A DNA stretch of 64,000 bases from positions 310,001 to 374,000 of the forward strand of contig NZ_JAPDGS010000004.1 in NCBI RefSeq assembly GCF_025950525.1, read 5' to 3'. Within the stretch, counting starts at the first letter, position 1; each line of letters starts with the position of its first letter. The notes beneath the pieces were generated by a model. The model ran no database searches, was not told the DNA's origin, and saw only the letters and a program-made list of their open reading frames with translations. Of this stretch, positions 4,417 to 50,147 are shown in pieces. The translations under genes were made by a program, and so were the position numbers. Origin of the DNA: Stagnihabitans lacustris (GTDB lineage Bacteria > Pseudomonadota > Alphaproteobacteria > Rhodobacterales > Rhodobacteraceae).

Positions 4417-5199
4417 ATGATAACGGATCAGATGGTCGAAGACTTCCAGCGCGATGGCGTCGTGCTGGTCAAGGGCCTGTGGAAAGACTGGGTCCCCCAA
4501 CTGCAAGCGGGGATCGCGCGCAACATGGCCGAACCCGGGCCGCACGCCGCCGAAAACCTGAAGCCCGGCGAGCCCGGCCGGTTCTTCGACGACTATTGCA
4601 ACTGGGAGCGCATCCCCGAGTTCCGCGACGTGATCTTCAACTCGGGCGTTGCCGAGGCGGCCGCGCGGTTGATGCAGAGCCCCCGGGTGCAGATGTTCCA
4701 TGATCATGTGCTGGTCAAAGAGCCCGGGACCTCGAAGCCGACGCCCTGGCATCAGGACGGGCCCTATTACTTCGTCAAGGGCCGCCAGACCGTGTCGTTC
4801 TGGTCGCCTTTGGACCCGGTGCGCGAGGCAAGCCTGCGCTGCGTCGCCGGAAGCCATCTGTGGCCGAAAGAGGTCCTGCCGAAACGCTGGCTGGCCGATA
4901 CGTCCTTTTACCCCGATCCCGAGCGCTACATGCCCGTCCCCGACCCCGACGCCGAAGGGATGCGGGTCATGGAATGGGAGATGGAGCCGGGCGACGCCGT
5001 GGCCTTTGATTACCTGACGCTGCACGGCGCGCGCGGCAACGAGGCGGCCACCCGGCGCCGGGCCTTCAGCTTGCGGCTGGTGGGCGAGGATGCCCGCGTG
5101 ATCGACCGCCCCGGCCGGACCTCGCCACCCTATGAGGGGCATGGGATGCAACCGGGCGAAAGGCTGCGGGAAGACTGGTTCCCGGTGCTGAAAGGGTAA
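4417..5199 (+). CDS. Phytanoyl-CoA dioxygenase (PhyH) family Fe(II)/2-oxoglutarate oxygenase
   Basis: 260 residues from the ATG at 4417, preceded by ACAGGAAAG. It has the full 2-His-1-carboxylate facial triad of the family: HQD (H112, D114) and a distal H203 in TLHGARGN, with the arginine-rich strand near residues 214-220 positioned to bind 2-oxoglutarate. Members hydroxylate small organic acids, ectoine or phytanoyl-CoA; the substrate here is not evident, and ectoine genes are absent nearby. It is transcribed divergently from a LysR regulator, with a dyad operator and a three-fold 14-bp repeat in its leader. Confidence 0.85.
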   Translation: MITDQMVEDFQRDGVVLVKGLWKDWVPQLQAGIARNMAEPGPHAAENLKPGEPGRFFDDYCNWERIPEFRDVIFNSGVAEAAARLMQSPRVQMFHDHVLVKEPGTSKPTPWHQDGPYYFVKGRQTVSFWSPLDPVREASLRCVAGSHLWPKEVLPKRWLADTSFYPDPERYMPVPDPDAEGMRVMEWEMEPGDAVAFDYLTLHGARGNEAATRRRAFSLRLVGEDARVIDRPGRTSPPYEGHGMQPGERLREDWFPVLKG

Positions 5200-5216
5200 T
5201 CCTTGCGGCAGGCGCT

Positions 5217-5335
5217 GGAGGGGTTTCACCCCCCCAACTGTTCATAAATATCCCACCTGCGCCGATCATCGCGCCATTGGTCCGAGCGATGATCGGCGCG
5301 GCGGTCCGGGAGGGTGTGAAACCCTCTCGGGGGTT
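5217..5335. repeat. Long imperfect palindrome with perfect 14-bp hairpin core
   Basis: The core is an exact inverted repeat, GCGCCGATCATCGC (5259-5272) and GCGATGATCGGCGC (5286-5299), with a 13-nt loop. On both sides lie inversely oriented GGTTTCACCCCC / GTGTGAAACCC elements (about 5219-5233 and 5313-5328), which belong to the same repeat family seen elsewhere in the window (with TTCATAAATATCCCACC at 5240-5257). It occupies most of the gap after the dioxygenase gene. Confidence 0.7.
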
Positions 5336-5419
5336 GAGCAAAGCGCAAGCTTGGAGGGGCAGAGTTCTCTTTGTCCCGCTTGGCCCCGGCGGAAAACGCA
5401 AACCCGGTCAAGATTTCCC

Positions 5420-5448
5420 TTGGGCTTTGCGTCACGCGCTGCTAAAAG
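5420..5448 (+). promoter_or_regulatory. Predicted sigma-70 promoter of cysS leader
   Basis: TTGGGC (5420-5425), a 17-bp spacer and TAAAAG (5443-5448). Start of transcription about 7-8 nt downstream would fall on or next to the A of the leader ATG at 5456, predicting a leaderless transcript. Confidence 0.5.
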
Positions 5449-5455
5449 CCGCGCC

Positions 5456-5500
5456 ATGAAGGCGATGCGCATCATCAACGGCTGCTGCATTACCGGCTGA
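5456..5500 (+). CDS. 14-codon leader peptide with tandem Cys codons upstream of cysS
   Basis: Reads [14 protein letters not shown] then TGA. Cys codons 10 and 11 are both TGC and adjacent. There is no Shine-Dalgarno sequence, but the predicted promoter would place the transcript start at the ATG. The stop is 73 nt before cysS. Downstream sequence can form two mutually exclusive hairpins (5509-5551 and 5547-5561). The layout matches ribosome-mediated attenuation, in which stalling at Cys codons when Cys-tRNA is scarce would switch the RNA fold ahead of the Cys-tRNA synthetase gene. This is inferred from layout and not from a known family. Confidence 0.55.
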
Positions 5501-5508
5501 CACAAGGT

Positions 5509-5561
5509 CAGGCGGCCCGTCCTTCGTATCCCATCGAAACCGGACCGCCTGGAGATCAGGC
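5509..5561 (+). promoter_or_regulatory. Alternative hairpins between Cys leader peptide and cysS
   Basis: CAGGCGG (5509-5515) pairs with CCGCCTG (5545-5551), extended inward by CCG/CGG across one mismatch. The right arm can instead pair as GCCTG (5547-5551) with CAGGC (5557-5561) around a GAGAT loop. The two folds exclude each other. The cysS ribosome site GGAGGG (5565-5570) follows at once. No T-run is present, so control of translation or of Rho is as likely as intrinsic termination. Confidence 0.5.
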
Positions 5562-5573
5562 ATTGGAGGGATC

Positions 5574-6986
5574 ATGGGGATCAGGCTGCACAATTCGGCG
5601 ACGCGGGCGAAAGAGGATTTCGCGCCGATCGACCCTTTGAATGTCCGGATGTATGTCTGTGGCCCCACGGTCTATGACCGCGCCCATATCGGCAATGCGC
5701 GGCCTGTGGTGGTGTTTGACACGCTTTACCGCCTGCTCCGCCATGTCTATGGGCCCGATCACGTCACCTATGTCCGCAACTTTACCGATGTGGATGACAA
5801 GATCAACGCCACCGCCCAGGCCCGCAAGGCCGCAGGCGATGCGCGCCCCTTGGAGGCGCTGATCCGCGAGCGGACCGAAGAGACCATCGGCTGGTATCAC
5901 GCCGATATGGACGCGCTTGGCGCCTTGCGGCCTGATGTCGAGCCGCGCGCCACGGATTACATCGGCCAGATGGTCGCGATGATTGCCGGCCTGATCGCGG
6001 GCGGCCATGCCTATGAAAAGGAAGGCCATGTGCTGTTCCGCGTGCGGTCTTATGCCGAATATGGCCGGCTTTCGGGGCGGTCGGTTGATGACATGATCGC
6101 GGGGGCGCGGGTCGAGGTCGCGCCCTTCAAGGAAGACCCGATGGATTTCGTGTTGTGGAAGCCCTCGGACGCAGATCTTCCGGGCTGGGTCTCGCCCTGG
6201 GGCCGGGGGCGGCCGGGCTGGCATATCGAATGTTCAGCCATGGCGCATGAATTGCTGGGGGCAGAGTTCGATATTCACGGCGGCGGGCTGGACCTGCAAT
6301 TCCCCCATCATGAGAACGAAATCGCCCAAAGCGCCTGCTGCGGCCATGGCTTTGCGCGTTTCTGGCTGCACAACGAGATGCTGCAGGTCGAGGGCAAGAA
6401 GATGTCCAAGTCCTTGGGCAATTTCTTTACCGTGCGGGATTTGCTGGATCAAGGGGTGCCGGGGGAAGTGATCCGGATGGTCTTCCTCGGCACGCATTAC
6501 GGCAAGCCGATGGACTGGACGGCGGAGAAGGCTGTTGAAGCGGAAATGAGACTCCACGGCTTCCTTGAACTGATCGGGCTTTATGGGGATCTGCAGCAGG
6601 CGAAAACCCTTGCCCCAGAACCGGCGGTGATCGACGCCTTGAGCGATGATCTCAACACCCATGCCGCGTTAATGGTCTTGCAGAAGTTGAATGGGGCCGA
6701 TCAAGCCAATGCCTTGGCGCGCAACCTTGAATTCTTGGGCATCTACTCTTGGGAGACCCTAGAAACGAAGGTTGCCAATTTCCGCGGTTCACAGATACGC
6801 TTGCAGGAAATTGCGGCAGTCCTGCTCCAAGTCCGCGAGGTTGCTAAGGCCCAGAAGAACTTCACTGCCTTCGATGCTTTGAAGCAGCGGATCACCACAG
6901 CGAACATAGCGGTGATGATTGGCAAGGACGGCATCACGCTGCGCCCCGAGATCGACATGGACCTGACCAAGCTGGCGGACCTTTAA
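5574..6986 (+). CDS. cysS: Cysteinyl-tRNA synthetase
   Basis: 470 residues, normal for bacterial CysRS (charges tRNA-Cys, cytosol). Zinc-ligand region [10 protein letters not shown] (C29), class I HIGN at residues 38-41, further zinc-site sequence HIECSAM, and KMSKS at 276-280. The start is set by GGAGGG at 5565. The last 150 or so codons (from about 6530) are visibly poorer in GC and use codons such as TTG, GAA and AAG unlike the first two thirds, which suggests recombination. It follows a Cys-rich leader ORF and precedes cimA. Confidence 0.95.
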
Positions 6987-7095: not shown

Positions 7096-8703
7096 ATGGA
7101 ACGGCTCTACCTTTTCGACACCACCCTGCGCGATGGCCAGCAGACCCAGGGCGTCCAGTTCTCCACCGCCGAGAAAATCCGCATCGCGCGGGCTTTGGAC
7201 GACCTGGGCGTCGATTATATCGAGGGCGGCTGGCCGGGGGCGAACCCCACCGACAGCCTCTTCTTTGCCGAAGCGCCGCAGACCCGCGCCACGATGACCG
7301 CCTTTGGCATGACCAAACGTGTCGGCCGCTCGGCCGCCAATGACGACGTTCTGGCCGCCGTGCTGGACGCGGGCACGCCTGCGGTGTGCCTGGTCGGCAA
7401 GTCCCATGAGTTCCATGTGACCACCGCGCTTGGCGTCAGCCTGGAGGAAAACCGCGCCGCCATCGCCGAGAGTTTCGCCCATGTCACCGCCAAGGGCCGC
7501 GAAGCCTTGTTTGACGCGGAACACTTCTTTGACGGCTACAAGGCCAATCCGGCCTATGCCATCAGCTGCCTGCAGGCGGCTTTGGACGCTGGCGCCCGCT
7601 GGCTGGTTCTGTGTGACACCAATGGCGGCACGCTTCCGGCCGAGGTCCACCGCATCGTGACCGAGGTCATCGCCCAAGGCATCCCCGGCGACCGTCTGGG
7701 CATCCATTGCCATGACGACACCGGGCACGCGGTGGCGAATTCGCTGGCTGCGGTCGATGCGGGGGTGCGCCAGATCCAGGGCACTCTGAACGGGTTGGGA
7801 GAGCGCTGCGGCAATGCCAACCTGACCACGATCATCCCGACGCTGCTGCTGAAGGACCCCTACCGCTCGCGCTACCTTACCGGGGTGACGGCCGAAGGCC
7901 TGCGGGGCCTCTTGCGCGACAGCCGGATGCTGGACGACATCCTGAACCGCGTGCCCGCGCGCCAGGCGGCCTATGTGGGCGCCAGCGCCTTTGCCCACAA
8001 GGCGGGGTTGCATGCCAGCGCGATCCTGAAGAACCCCACGACCTATGAACATGTCGACCCCGCCTTGGTGGGCAACGAACGTGTCATCCCGATGTCGAAC
8101 CAGGCGGGCCAGTCCAACCTGCGCACAAGGCTTGCGCAAGCCGGGATCGAGGTCCCCCCGGGCGATCCGCGCCTTGGCAGCATCCTGGATCTGGTCAAAG
8201 AGCGCGAGGATCAGGGCTATGCCTATGACGGCGCCCAGGCCTCGTTTGAACTGCTGGCAAGGCGGGAACTTGGCCAACTGCCGGCGTTCTTTGAGGTGCT
8301 GCGCTACCGCGTCACCGTCGAGCGGCGCAAGTCGGCCTCCCATGGGACGGTGACGATCTCGGAGGCCGTGGTGGTGGTCAAGATCGGCGATCAGGTGATG
8401 ATGTCGGTCAGCGACAGCGCCTCGGAGACCAAGGACGACAACGGCCCGGTGAACGCTTTGTCCAAGGCCCTGGCCAAGGACCTCGGCCCCTATCAGGGCG
8501 TGATCGACGACATGAACCTGGTGGATTTCAAGGTCCGCATCACCGGGGATGGCACGGATGCGGTGACGCGCGTGATCATCGACTCTGAGGACGGCGAGGG
8601 TCGGCGCTGGTCCACCGTCGGGGTCAGCGCGAATATCGTCGATGCCAGCTTTGAGGCGCTGCTGGATGCGATCACCTGGAAACTGGTGCGCGATGCTGCC
8701 TGA
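7096..8703 (+). CDS. cimA: (R)-citramalate synthase
   Basis: 535 residues, from the ATG at 7096. The N-terminal HMGL-like TIM barrel starts with FDTTLRDGQQTQGV (residues 7-20); HCHDDTGHAVANSLAAVDAG carries the metal-binding histidines, and the C-terminal LeuA-type dimerisation/regulatory domain occupies about residues 400-535. Length and the GGWPGANPTDSLFF segment match the long citramalate-synthase subfamily (pyruvate + acetyl-CoA to citramalate, threonine-independent isoleucine route) better than leuA. The next gene overlaps its end by 11 bp. Confidence 0.88.
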   Translation: MERLYLFDTTLRDGQQTQGVQFSTAEKIRIARALDDLGVDYIEGGWPGANPTDSLFFAEAPQTRATMTAFGMTKRVGRSAANDDVLAAVLDAGTPAVCLVGKSHEFHVTTALGVSLEENRAAIAESFAHVTAKGREALFDAEHFFDGYKANPAYAISCLQAALDAGARWLVLCDTNGGTLPAEVHRIVTEVIAQGIPGDRLGIHCHDDTGHAVANSLAAVDAGVRQIQGTLNGLGERCGNANLTTIIPTLLLKDPYRSRYLTGVTAEGLRGLLRDSRMLDDILNRVPARQAAYVGASAFAHKAGLHASAILKNPTTYEHVDPALVGNERVIPMSNQAGQSNLRTRLAQAGIEVPPGDPRLGSILDLVKEREDQGYAYDGAQASFELLARRELGQLPAFFEVLRYRVTVERRKSASHGTVTISEAVVVVKIGDQVMMSVSDSASETKDDNGPVNALSKALAKDLGPYQGVIDDMNLVDFKVRITGDGTDAVTRVIIDSEDGEGRRWSTVGVSANIVDASFEALLDAITWKLVRDAA

Positions 8704-48510: not shown

Positions 48511-50085
48511 TTAGCGAAAATGCATCGGGTATTTCGCCCGGATCTGCGCGTCGATGGCAGGGTCGATCACATTGCCCGCCTTGGCCCAAATCTCATTCTT
48601 GCGGCGGATGGCGCTGTCCAGAAGCAGGGGCTTGCCGGCCTCGTTCCACTCCTTGGGAGACATGCGGTTGGCGACCTTGGGATAGACATATTCGGTCTGC
48701 ATCAACTCCAGCGTCTGCAGCGACCCCAGGTAATGCCCGGGCCCGCCCAGACAAACCTGCTTCATCGCCTCAATCGAGGTGTTGTCTTCGGTCACTTCGA
48801 TGCCCCGCACGCAGCGCATGGCCTGGCCCAACAGGTCATCGCCCATGATCAGGCTTTCGTGGCAGAAGCCCAGAAGCGAGGCATGCATCCCGACCGCCTC
48901 ATAGCACATGTTCAGCCCGGCAAGGCCCGCGAGCGTATTGGTGATCCCCTGCTCCCAACCGGCCTGCATATCCGGCAACTTCGAGTCGCTGATGCCAGAG
49001 GCCGCACCGCCCGGCAGGTTGTAAAACCGGTGCATCTGGGCGCAACCGGCGGTCAGAAGCGCCTGTTCCGCGCTGCCCCCCGACATGGCCCCGGTGCGCA
49101 GGTCGCTGACAAAAGGCCAGGTGCCAAAGATGAAAGGCGCCCCCTTCTTGATCGCGTTGACATAGACCACACCCGCCAGACACTCCGCCATGGCCTGCAC
49201 GATGGCCAAGGCGATGGGCGCAGGCGCCGTGGCCCCCGCCTGCCCCGCCGACAACAGCAGCATCGGCATGCCGCGGCGCACGCAATCCTCCATCACCCGG
49301 CAGGATTCCTCGGCAAATTTCATCGGCGGCACGACGAAACAGTTGGAATTGCTGACAAAGGGCCGCTCCAGCCATTTGTCCTCGCCCCCCGCCACCATAT
49401 GCAGGATGTCAAAGGCCGGCGCCACCGCCTCGGGGTCAAAGAACGAGGTCCCGACATGTTTCCGCGTGCCCGCAAGGCAAGCATAAAGCGTGTTCAGATC
49501 CATGTCGCGGTTGTCGATGACATCGCGGCAGACCATGGTCCGCTGATAGAAGTGGATGTTGTCCAGATGCTCGACCAGGCGCGCCGCGTCATAAAGGTCC
49601 TGCGCGGTGGAATCGCGATAGTCATGCGTCACCGGATCGACGATATGAACCGCCGCCCCCGCCGTGCCGAAATGCACCTTTGACCCTGACAGATGCAGAT
49701 CATGCCGAGGGTCCCGCGCATGCAGAGTGATATCCCGCGCCGCCACCGCCAACATATCCTCGACCAAAGCGCGCGGAAACCGGATGCGCCCGTCATCGCC
49801 CAAAACCGCCCCGGCCCCGGTCAATATCTCCACCCCCGAAGCCGGAGCATTGGAGAACCCGATGACCTCCAAGGCCTGCAAGGCGCTTTCATGGATGCGC
49901 GCCATCCCCGCCTCGGTCAGGGGCTTGTAAGTCCCGCCCACCATGCCGCCCTTGATGGGTCGCACATCATCGGCCAGAGGCGCGGCCCGCATGGCCACCC
50001 GCGCCGCCCGCCCACCCGAACGTCCACCCGACTGGGCCGCACTCCGCGCCTTCGCCGGTTCGCAAACTTCACCCACTTCGCTCAT
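48511..50085 (-). CDS. MttB-family (trimethylamine methyltransferase superfamily) protein without pyrrolysine
   Basis: 524 residues from the ATG at 50085 (six codons inside the longest frame). The fold signature runs through FSNAPASGVEILTGAGAVLGDDGRIRFP, HYDRDSTAQDLYDAARLVEHLDNIHF-like sequence and SGGSAEQALLTAGCAQMHRFYNLPGG. No in-frame TAG is present, so it is a non-pyrrolysine MttB homologue like the glycine-betaine or carnitine demethylases. Those transfer a methyl group to a corrinoid protein, but no corrinoid protein or reactivase gene is nearby. An Ala/Arg/Gly-rich N-terminal 40 residues is extra. Confidence 0.85.
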   Translation of the reverse strand: MSEVGEVCEPAKARSAAQSGGRSGGRAARVAMRAAPLADDVRPIKGGMVGGTYKPLTEAGMARIHESALQALEVIGFSNAPASGVEILTGAGAVLGDDGRIRFPRALVEDMLAVAARDITLHARDPRHDLHLSGSKVHFGTAGAAVHIVDPVTHDYRDSTAQDLYDAARLVEHLDNIHFYQRTMVCRDVIDNRDMDLNTLYACLAGTRKHVGTSFFDPEAVAPAFDILHMVAGGEDKWLERPFVSNSNCFVVPPMKFAEESCRVMEDCVRRGMPMLLLSAGQAGATAPAPIALAIVQAMAECLAGVVYVNAIKKGAPFIFGTWPFVSDLRTGAMSGGSAEQALLTAGCAQMHRFYNLPGGAASGISDSKLPDMQAGWEQGITNTLAGLAGLNMCYEAVGMHASLLGFCHESLIMGDDLLGQAMRCVRGIEVTEDNTSIEAMKQVCLGGPGHYLGSLQTLELMQTEYVYPKVANRMSPKEWNEAGKPLLLDSAIRRKNEIWAKAGNVIDPAIDAQIRAKYPMHFR

Positions 50086-50097
50086 CGGCCCATCCTC

Positions 50098-50147
50098 ATT
50101 CATCTTTTCATAAATATCCCGGGGGTCCGGGGGCAGAGCCCCCGGGG
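50098..50147 (+). repeat. Interspersed repeat between MttB-family and DMGDH-like genes
   Basis: TTCATCTTTTCATAAATATC then CCGGGGGTCCGGGGGCAGAG and CCCCCGGGGC; the hairpin is GGGGG-CAGAG-CCCCC. It is intercistronic within the minus-strand cluster. Confidence 0.8.

Follow-up and report, generated by a model that had tools for sequence, protein, structure and literature searches.

The window analysed here, a 64,000-nt stretch of a Stagnihabitans lacustris contig, carries on its forward strand a gene for cysteine--tRNA ligase (cysS), which lies 118 nt from a short upstream open reading frame (uORF) and is followed by a citramalate synthase gene (cimA) that starts 109 nt past the cysS stop codon on the same strand. 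The uORF, an inferred promoter, and several predicted RNA segments between the uORF and cysS are listed with the two genes in Table 1. No match to a T-box or any other Rfam leader was obtained in 5300-5700, even at E ≤ 10.

Table 1. Features of the cysS-cimA locus, in positions of the window
Feature	Position	Strand	Details
Inferred promoter P1	5420-5447	+	-35 TTGGGC 5420-5425; 16-nt spacer; -10 CTAAAA 5442-5447
uORF, 14 codons	5456-5500	+	ATG 5456; TGC TGC 5483-5488; TGA 5498-5500
uORF Ile codons	5471-5476 and 5489-5491	+	
Hairpin A (segments 1:2)	5493-5515	+	CCGGCUGAC/GUCAGGCGG; CCG-CUGAC/GUCAG-CGG
Hairpin B (segments 2:3)	5509-5551	+	CAGGCGGCCCG 5509-5519 with CGGACCGCCUG 5541-5551; CAGGCGG-CCG/CGG-CCGCCUG
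Pyrimidine-rich segment Y	5518-5540	+	Predicted anti-Shine-Dalgarno arm GUCCUUCGUAUCCCAUCG 5519-5536; pairing seen in the window's clade
Hairpin C (segments 3:4)	5547-5561	+	GCCUG-GAGAU-CAGGC; nested within the predicted Y:SD helix
cysS Shine-Dalgarno (SD) GGAGGG and start codon (5574)	5565-5576	+	SD paired to Y in the predicted fold
cysS, cysteine--tRNA ligase, 470 aa	5574-6986	+	TIGR00435, 406.8 bits (cut-off 340)
cimA, citramalate synthase (isoleucine route)	7096-8703	+	TIGR00977, 584.8 bits (cut-off 450)

Other elements were seen in the window. A perfect 14-bp inverted repeat (GCGCCGATCATCGC / GCGATGATCGGCGC) occupies 5259-5299, in the stretch that separates the upstream gene from the cysS promoter, and 5301-5326 (GCGGTCCGGGAGGGTGTGAAACCCTC) is a dispersed repeat with 22 matches in the genome at no more than two mismatches, against none for the reversed control. 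Far from this locus, an Rfam match to PYLIS_3, the pyrrolysine insertion element of mttB, lies on the minus strand at 48894-48993 (45 bits; cut-off 38); as it sits inside an uninterrupted 530-codon minus-strand ORF (48511-50103), the gene is perhaps mttB-like and without pyrrolysine.

A conserved Cys-rich uORF at leaderless spacing

A preliminary description of the window had reported a 14-codon ORF with adjacent Cys codons in front of cysS, and this ORF was confirmed. An ATG-initiated ORF of 9 to 20 codons with adjacent Cys codons arose in 14 of 5,000 dinucleotide shuffles of 5380-5573 and, when a TA at the -10 position was demanded as well, in none of another 5,000. We compared the regions upstream of cysS at 30 loci drawn from the genus and family of the window (window included) and at 80 named cysS loci, some from other orders and classes; most loci of the family carry a related ORF. 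An initial pick of 73 uORFs was reduced by removing four chance ORFs (L061, L069, L093, and L106); the L023 ORF was then replaced and L077 was included manually, for 70 in all, and the exclusion of L019, L081, L084, and L110 from the hairpin and composition tests left 66. These counts exclude 20 genomes of other genera whose CysS is near the window's (L206-L225), which were read by eye.

The 66 uORFs are 13 or 14 codons long in 62 cases. The preliminary description had proposed to look for conserved Cys codons in relatives, and they are conserved: among these ORFs, which were selected for at least one Cys codon near the ORF end, 59 carry at least two Cys codons, and 47 carry adjacent ones, which are absent in 19. 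Cys content persists even though codon choice (TGC 165 times, TGT 15 times) and Cys position (-11 to -1 from the stop codon) differ between uORFs, and the peptide sequence drifts apart from its Cys and Ile content.

The placement of a -10 box in front of the ATG, which had been described from the window as part of a -35/-10 pair at leaderless spacing, is likewise conserved. In the window the -10 box ends 8 nt before the uORF ATG. An NTANNN hexamer ends 6 to 9 nt before the ATG in 62 of the 66 uORFs (the exceptions being L023, L028, L076, and L077) and at 7 to 8 nt in 60, the spacing that leaderless transcription requires; of 273 further ATGs in these regions, 6 have such a hexamer at 7 to 8 nt. 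The wider set of 112 leaders includes 46 that came from a motif model and whose ORFs were chosen using the -10 spacing; hence, the spacing was counted on the remaining 66. Neither a promoter nor a terminator was detected by a generic scan of 5000-5900, so that P1 rests on conservation; it would place the start of transcription at the uORF ATG or next to it. For a leader peptide that is translated from the 5' terminus of its transcript, an alphaproteobacterial parallel is the rhizobial trpL attenuator (rnTrpL), which differs from the cysS leader in its Trp codons, its transcription terminator, and the gene that it controls.

The preliminary description knew of no Cys leader on an alphaproteobacterial cysS, but one had been published in 2021 as the motif uORFC-8-2 (RNA Biol; PMC8632094), the only paper with this cysS motif in the literature that we looked through. 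As presented in the passages of that paper on the motif, its 145 examples are all from Rhodobacterales and precede no gene but cysS; they combine tandem Cys codons with a terminator-like stem and are predicted to act by Cys attenuation through ribosome stalling. The window's leader resembles that description in its order, its gene, a short uORF that begins with AUG and carries tandem Cys codons, a pair of prominent stems, and predicted relief by stalling. It differs in that the published consensus has a 3' U-run on the second stem, which the window's leader lacks, and that the tandem Cys codons are usually codons 14 and 15 there, perhaps counted from another AUG, and codons 10 and 11 here. The published first stem contains the Cys codons, a pairing for which we found no covariation support. 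Because of the missing U-run and the position of the Cys codons, we file the window's leader as a variant rather than a strict member of uORFC-8-2, with which it shares its gene, its sensor, and its likely logic. The main text of PMC8632094 does not use the word leaderless, and its relevant passages mention neither Ile nor cimA; a look through the literature on citramalate synthase together with a leader peptide, attenuation, or cysS gave no title on a Cys/Ile leader. In this literature we met no account of the Ile enrichment and cimA linkage, the translational output proposed for the window's clade, or the Cys-rich uORFs of other families, all described below.

Leaderless polycysteine uORFs with Cys-responsive attenuation have also been described in mycobacteria, according to the passages on them in PMC9031893 (citing Canestrari 2020) and PMC4633059. 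Like the cysS uORFs, whose leaderless state is deduced here from promoter spacing, these are leaderless short ORFs with contiguous Cys codons, but as given there they belong to another phylum and precede other target genes, e.g., cysA2.

A sequence-only model of the leaders (R1) matched 236 of 295 genomes of the family at E ≤ 0.01, and cysS itself was detected in 281 of the same 295. The R1 count is probably too low, because 6 of 16 fetched R1-negative leaders still carry a Cys-containing short ORF by eye (L195, L196, L199, L201, L202, and L204). The best R1 match adjoins cysS in all 51 genomes fetched, the window's own included, at scores between 22 and 70 bits; sequences from some of the 51 had gone into the model. 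Second matches, of at most 21 bits, occurred in 19 genomes, and none of the 11 fetched adjoins cysS; nor does any of the 16 outgroup matches fetched. Across 289 genomes of the class, strong matches were confined to the four members of the window's family, including the window's genome, and 24 other genomes matched weakly (best E, 1.4e-4).

Beyond the family, an ORF of 8 to 30 codons with at least two Cys codons is present in 22 of 30 cysS upstream regions of the Hyphomonas family, versus 5.5 expected from shuffles; by eye, some of these uORFs lie at leaderless spacing from a -10-like box, and others have a Shine-Dalgarno-like site. The Cys-rich short ORFs of this family, such as MKTIRFHRCSACCCCC, were seen among loci L110 and L228-L255. 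Elsewhere in the class, a Cys-rich short ORF starting with ATG or GTG precedes cysS in 18 of 103 regions, versus 4.1 expected. Together, these counts suggest that in Alphaproteobacteria cysS is preceded by a Cys-rich leader more often than by the published motif. Examples from these other families are L258, L281, L299, L313, L314, L315, L325, and L334; the peptides of L314, L315, and L334 look alike, with RCC, then GR, and an Ile near the end.

Mutually exclusive predicted hairpins in the cysS leader

Two mutually exclusive hairpins had been described as lying between the ORF and the cysS ribosome site. Their exclusivity stands, as hairpins A and B share 5509-5515, but their placement needs correction, since A overlaps the uORF end: it pairs the last uORF codons and the stop codon with the segment after the uORF. 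Hairpin B competes with A for the shared segment and with hairpin C for 5547-5551, and in most leaders its second arm lies beyond a spacer of 20 to 35 nt.

RNAalifold, run on a plain MAFFT alignment of 65 leaders (65 of 68 references, leaving out L019, L053, and L084), returned no structure at all. As the stem register shifts between species, we tested the hairpins by swapping arms between species, a control that ignores relatedness, so that kin sequences can inflate its signal. The test took 111 of the 112 leaders, one being without the GCGG anchor, and 104 of these 111 for hairpin C. Own arms paired better than swapped arms across all 111 leaders for both A (z = −11.5) and B (z = −5.5), with 0 of 2,000 permutations as good in each case. 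The signal comes from the family outside the window's clade, where A and B covary, as the preliminary description had proposed to check: for the 101 leaders outside the clade, z was −11.3 for A and −5.8 for B, and after removal of leaders at least 80% alike (n = 48), it was −7.5 and −3.9, with 0 of 5,000 permutations as good for either hairpin in both sets. Within the 10 leaders of the window's clade, the arms hardly vary and there is no covariation signal (A, z = +1.6; B, z = −1.0).

Support for hairpin C is weaker than that for A and B. None of 2,000 permutations was as good over its 104 leaders, and 15 of 5,000 were in the window's clade; in the deduplicated rest, 850 of 5,000 were, which is not significant. 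Control pairings gave z values of +0.7 (uORF start with A3), −0.8 (uORF halves), −1.0 (Cys codons with the A region), −1.8 (A5 with the B3 region), −1.0 (Y with SD), and −2.7 (post-B3 with SD). Among these, the pairings that would place the Cys codons in a stem with a neighbouring segment (z = −1.0 and −0.8) gave no signal. Separately, and in the opposite sense, across the 111 leaders the uORF pairs worse with its own cysS SD region than when the region of another species is swapped in (z = +4.8; 2,000 of 2,000 permutations better).

The uORF is thus, by sequence comparison, a conserved element whose regulatory codons appear to be placed so that a stalled ribosome would block one of two exclusive hairpins; the 5' arm of hairpin A would presumably be covered by a ribosome stalled on a Cys codon or on the next Ile codon. 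We consider it likely that the cysS(-cimA) transcript is controlled by ribosome-mediated attenuation at the leader peptide. Transcription would start at the uORF ATG, and a 70S ribosome would read the leaderless uORF. With ample charged tRNA, the ribosome would finish and hairpin A would form over the uORF end, leaving segment 3 free for hairpin C, while Y would pair with the cysS SD and start codon and keep expression low. With Cys-tRNA, and perhaps Ile-tRNA, in short supply, the ribosome would stall on the Cys/Ile run and cover the 5' arm of A; B would then replace A, break C, and hold Y in its loop, allowing cysS to be translated.

Cys-rich peptides could bind metal, and the uORF might instead be a small translated gene, with a peptide that works in trans or senses the redox state, the RNA structures being secondary. 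Such action has a precedent in the rhizobial trp leader peptide, which acts in trans according to the relevant part of PMC7298713. We regard this explanation as very improbable for the cysS uORF, as the peptide drifts apart from its Cys and Ile content while the hairpins covary, and its place before cysS is fixed.

Possible outputs: sequestration of the ribosome site or termination

How an attenuator of this kind would act on cysS appears to differ within the family. In the window and nine leaders of the same genus, Y is complementary to the cysS SD and start codon, with predicted pairing energies of −14.0 to −21.5 kcal/mol. Own pairings in this clade give −19.3 versus −17.0 for swapped ones (3 of 5,000 permutations), a permutation count that is flattering because five of the ten leaders (L004, L005, L009, L010, and L012) are near copies and the real sample is about six; for 6 of the 10, the pairing falls in the best 5% obtained with shuffled Y. 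The window's fold had already been seen when the clade was chosen, and three leaders of the same genus (L007, L008, and L013) were excluded from its test, of which L007 and L013 have almost no Y:SD pairing (−4.5 and −3.3). As a family-wide mechanism, Y:SD pairing was rejected: over 98 leaders outside the genus, the mean z against shuffled Y was −0.01, with 6 of 98 at no more than 5 of 100 shuffles, even though the swap test there gave z = −2.1 (105 of 5,000 permutations).

Folding predictions bear on whether a block of hairpin A would be passed on to the ribosome site. With the 5' arm of A masked, predicted SD accessibility rises in 10 of 10 clade members when 10 nt of cysS are included, in 9 of 10 at 20 or 30 nt, and in 7 of 10 at 40 nt. 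For the window's own leader, the SD stays paired whether A is blocked or free once at least 17 nt of cysS are included: its unpaired fraction goes from 0.27 to 0.27 at 20 and 30 nt upon masking and from 0.37 to 0.27, the wrong direction, at 40 nt, where the clade mean goes from 0.24 to 0.24. Hence, the switch would need to be kinetic, with B formed before the SD is made. The folding z-scores are modest (−1.63 and −1.09).

The alternative is transcription attenuation as published for uORFC-8-2, in which hairpin A and a pyrimidine tract form an intrinsic terminator whose formation a stalled ribosome prevents. Among the 48 deduplicated leaders outside the clade, a U-rich tract (at least 5 T in 8 nt) starts 2 to 6 nt after the A stem in 27, or 0 to 2 nt after it by a stricter placing in 15, and the consensus shown in PMC8632094 has its 3' U-run. 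Against termination at the window stand the empty terminator scan and the 0 of 10 leaders of its clade that reach 5 T in the 8 nt after the A stem; further, B covaries, yet its second arm is downstream of the tract and so would not yet be made when termination there would be decided. We think termination unlikely as the explanation here, although it may apply to the majority of the family.

The absence of a U-run from the window's clade, together with its Y:SD complementarity, suggests a translational output in this clade and thus a change from a termination-like to a translational output behind one sensor. In many other members, the place of Y is taken by a U-rich tract and a promoter-like box. 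This box ([TC]TGNTA), a candidate second promoter P2 before cysS, is found in 21 of the 48 deduplicated leaders, versus 1.9% in shuffles, and in none of the 10 leaders of the window's clade; P2 is probably real elsewhere in the family and absent in this clade. By eye, leaders of the family without a recognisable uORF (L018, L070, L190-L194, L197, L198, L203, and L205) have such a box (TTGCTAAG, TTGATAAC, and similar) about 30 to 60 nt before cysS, and the same box is seen in many uORF-bearing leaders and is absent from the window's clade.

Isoleucine codons and linkage to cimA

The composition of the 66 uORFs (840 codons after the ATG, with expectations from nucleotide shuffles) is biased toward two amino acids: Cys occurs 180 times versus 23.1 expected (7.8-fold) and Ile 242 times versus 42.4 (5.7-fold). 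Thr (1.9-fold), Met (1.9-fold), and Lys (1.5-fold) are also enriched; His, Phe (4 versus 32.1 expected), Tyr (1 versus 30.6), and Leu (15 versus 92.9) are depleted. The third codon from the end encodes Ile in 64 of the 66, and with the last three codons removed, Ile still occurs 163 times versus 31.9 expected. The preliminary description had ribosomes stall on Cys codons under low Cys-tRNA; its Cys leader peptide and exclusive hairpins are conserved, but with Ile almost as enriched and cimA next to cysS, that reading is probably incomplete.

All 65 loci in or near the family that carry the uORF and leave more than 600 nt of room have cimA as the gene after cysS. Among 14 loci with room and no uORF, cimA follows in six and not in eight; these rows, in or near the family, were hand-picked from 37. 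The association is significant by a Fisher test that ignores relatedness (p = 1.2e-7). L110 was set aside from this table as belonging to another family, and L082 and the uORF-bearing L081 are labelled Neomegalonema. Five loci fell outside the count: the uORF-bearing L076, with no cimA within its 589 nt of room, and L075, L077, L079, and L085, with too little room. On a CysS tree of 76 rows, five independent pairs on supported branches differ in cimA linkage, and the uORF differs in the same way in 4.8 of the 5 on average and never in the opposite way (sign test, p = 0.0625, the best reachable with five pairs). The uORF is missing from five tree rows that keep cimA; hence, the dependence holds in one direction.

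Enterobacterial ilv and thr leaders are multivalent, with codons of more than one amino acid before a biosynthetic operon. We know of no multivalent leader that pairs Cys with Ile or that sits on a tRNA synthetase/citramalate synthase pair. The uORF and cimA data suggest such a bivalent Cys/Ile leader. In other families, however, uORFs before cysS-cimA are mixed in this respect, with several Ile codons in L299, L313, and L325 and not in L314, L315, and L334, so that we put bivalence itself at somewhat under an even chance.

A sensor of Cys alone would explain the Cys codons by cysS alone, with the Ile codons keeping the leader RNA unstructured or reflecting a need for a UGCAUUA-like RNA string and the cimA linkage reflecting operon inheritance. 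At the third-last codon, the nucleotide string is almost always ATT, the Cys-Cys uORFs of L314, L315, and L334 precede cysS-cimA and yet are Ile-poor, and the five tree rows that keep cimA without a uORF fit this explanation as well. It accounts less easily for the excess of Ile, which persists without the last three codons, while the other A/U-rich codons (Phe, Tyr, and Leu) are not enriched, or for the Hyphomonas family, whose uORFs are Cys-rich and Ile-poor (Ile makes up 4.1% of 22 peptides picked for high Cys) and where no cimA was found behind cysS at any of 29 loci, nor at L110. We give the Cys-only sensor a probability only just below even.

The fullest reading, a leaderless bivalent attenuator whose 13- or 14-codon peptide reads both Cys-tRNA and Ile-tRNA and sets the cysS-cimA operon, and which in the window's clade was rewired from a U-run output to sequestration of the cysS ribosome site, is held tentatively, at rather less than an even chance. 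The comparative data predict leaderless initiation, a role for the Ile codons and cimA, and two outputs behind one sensor. If the bivalent reading is true, the charging of cysteinyl-tRNA would be tied to the citramalate route to isoleucine. Further, if Cys-rich leaders are indeed commoner before cysS than the published motif, cysS would be a good case in which to follow the evolution of such switches and the change of their output.
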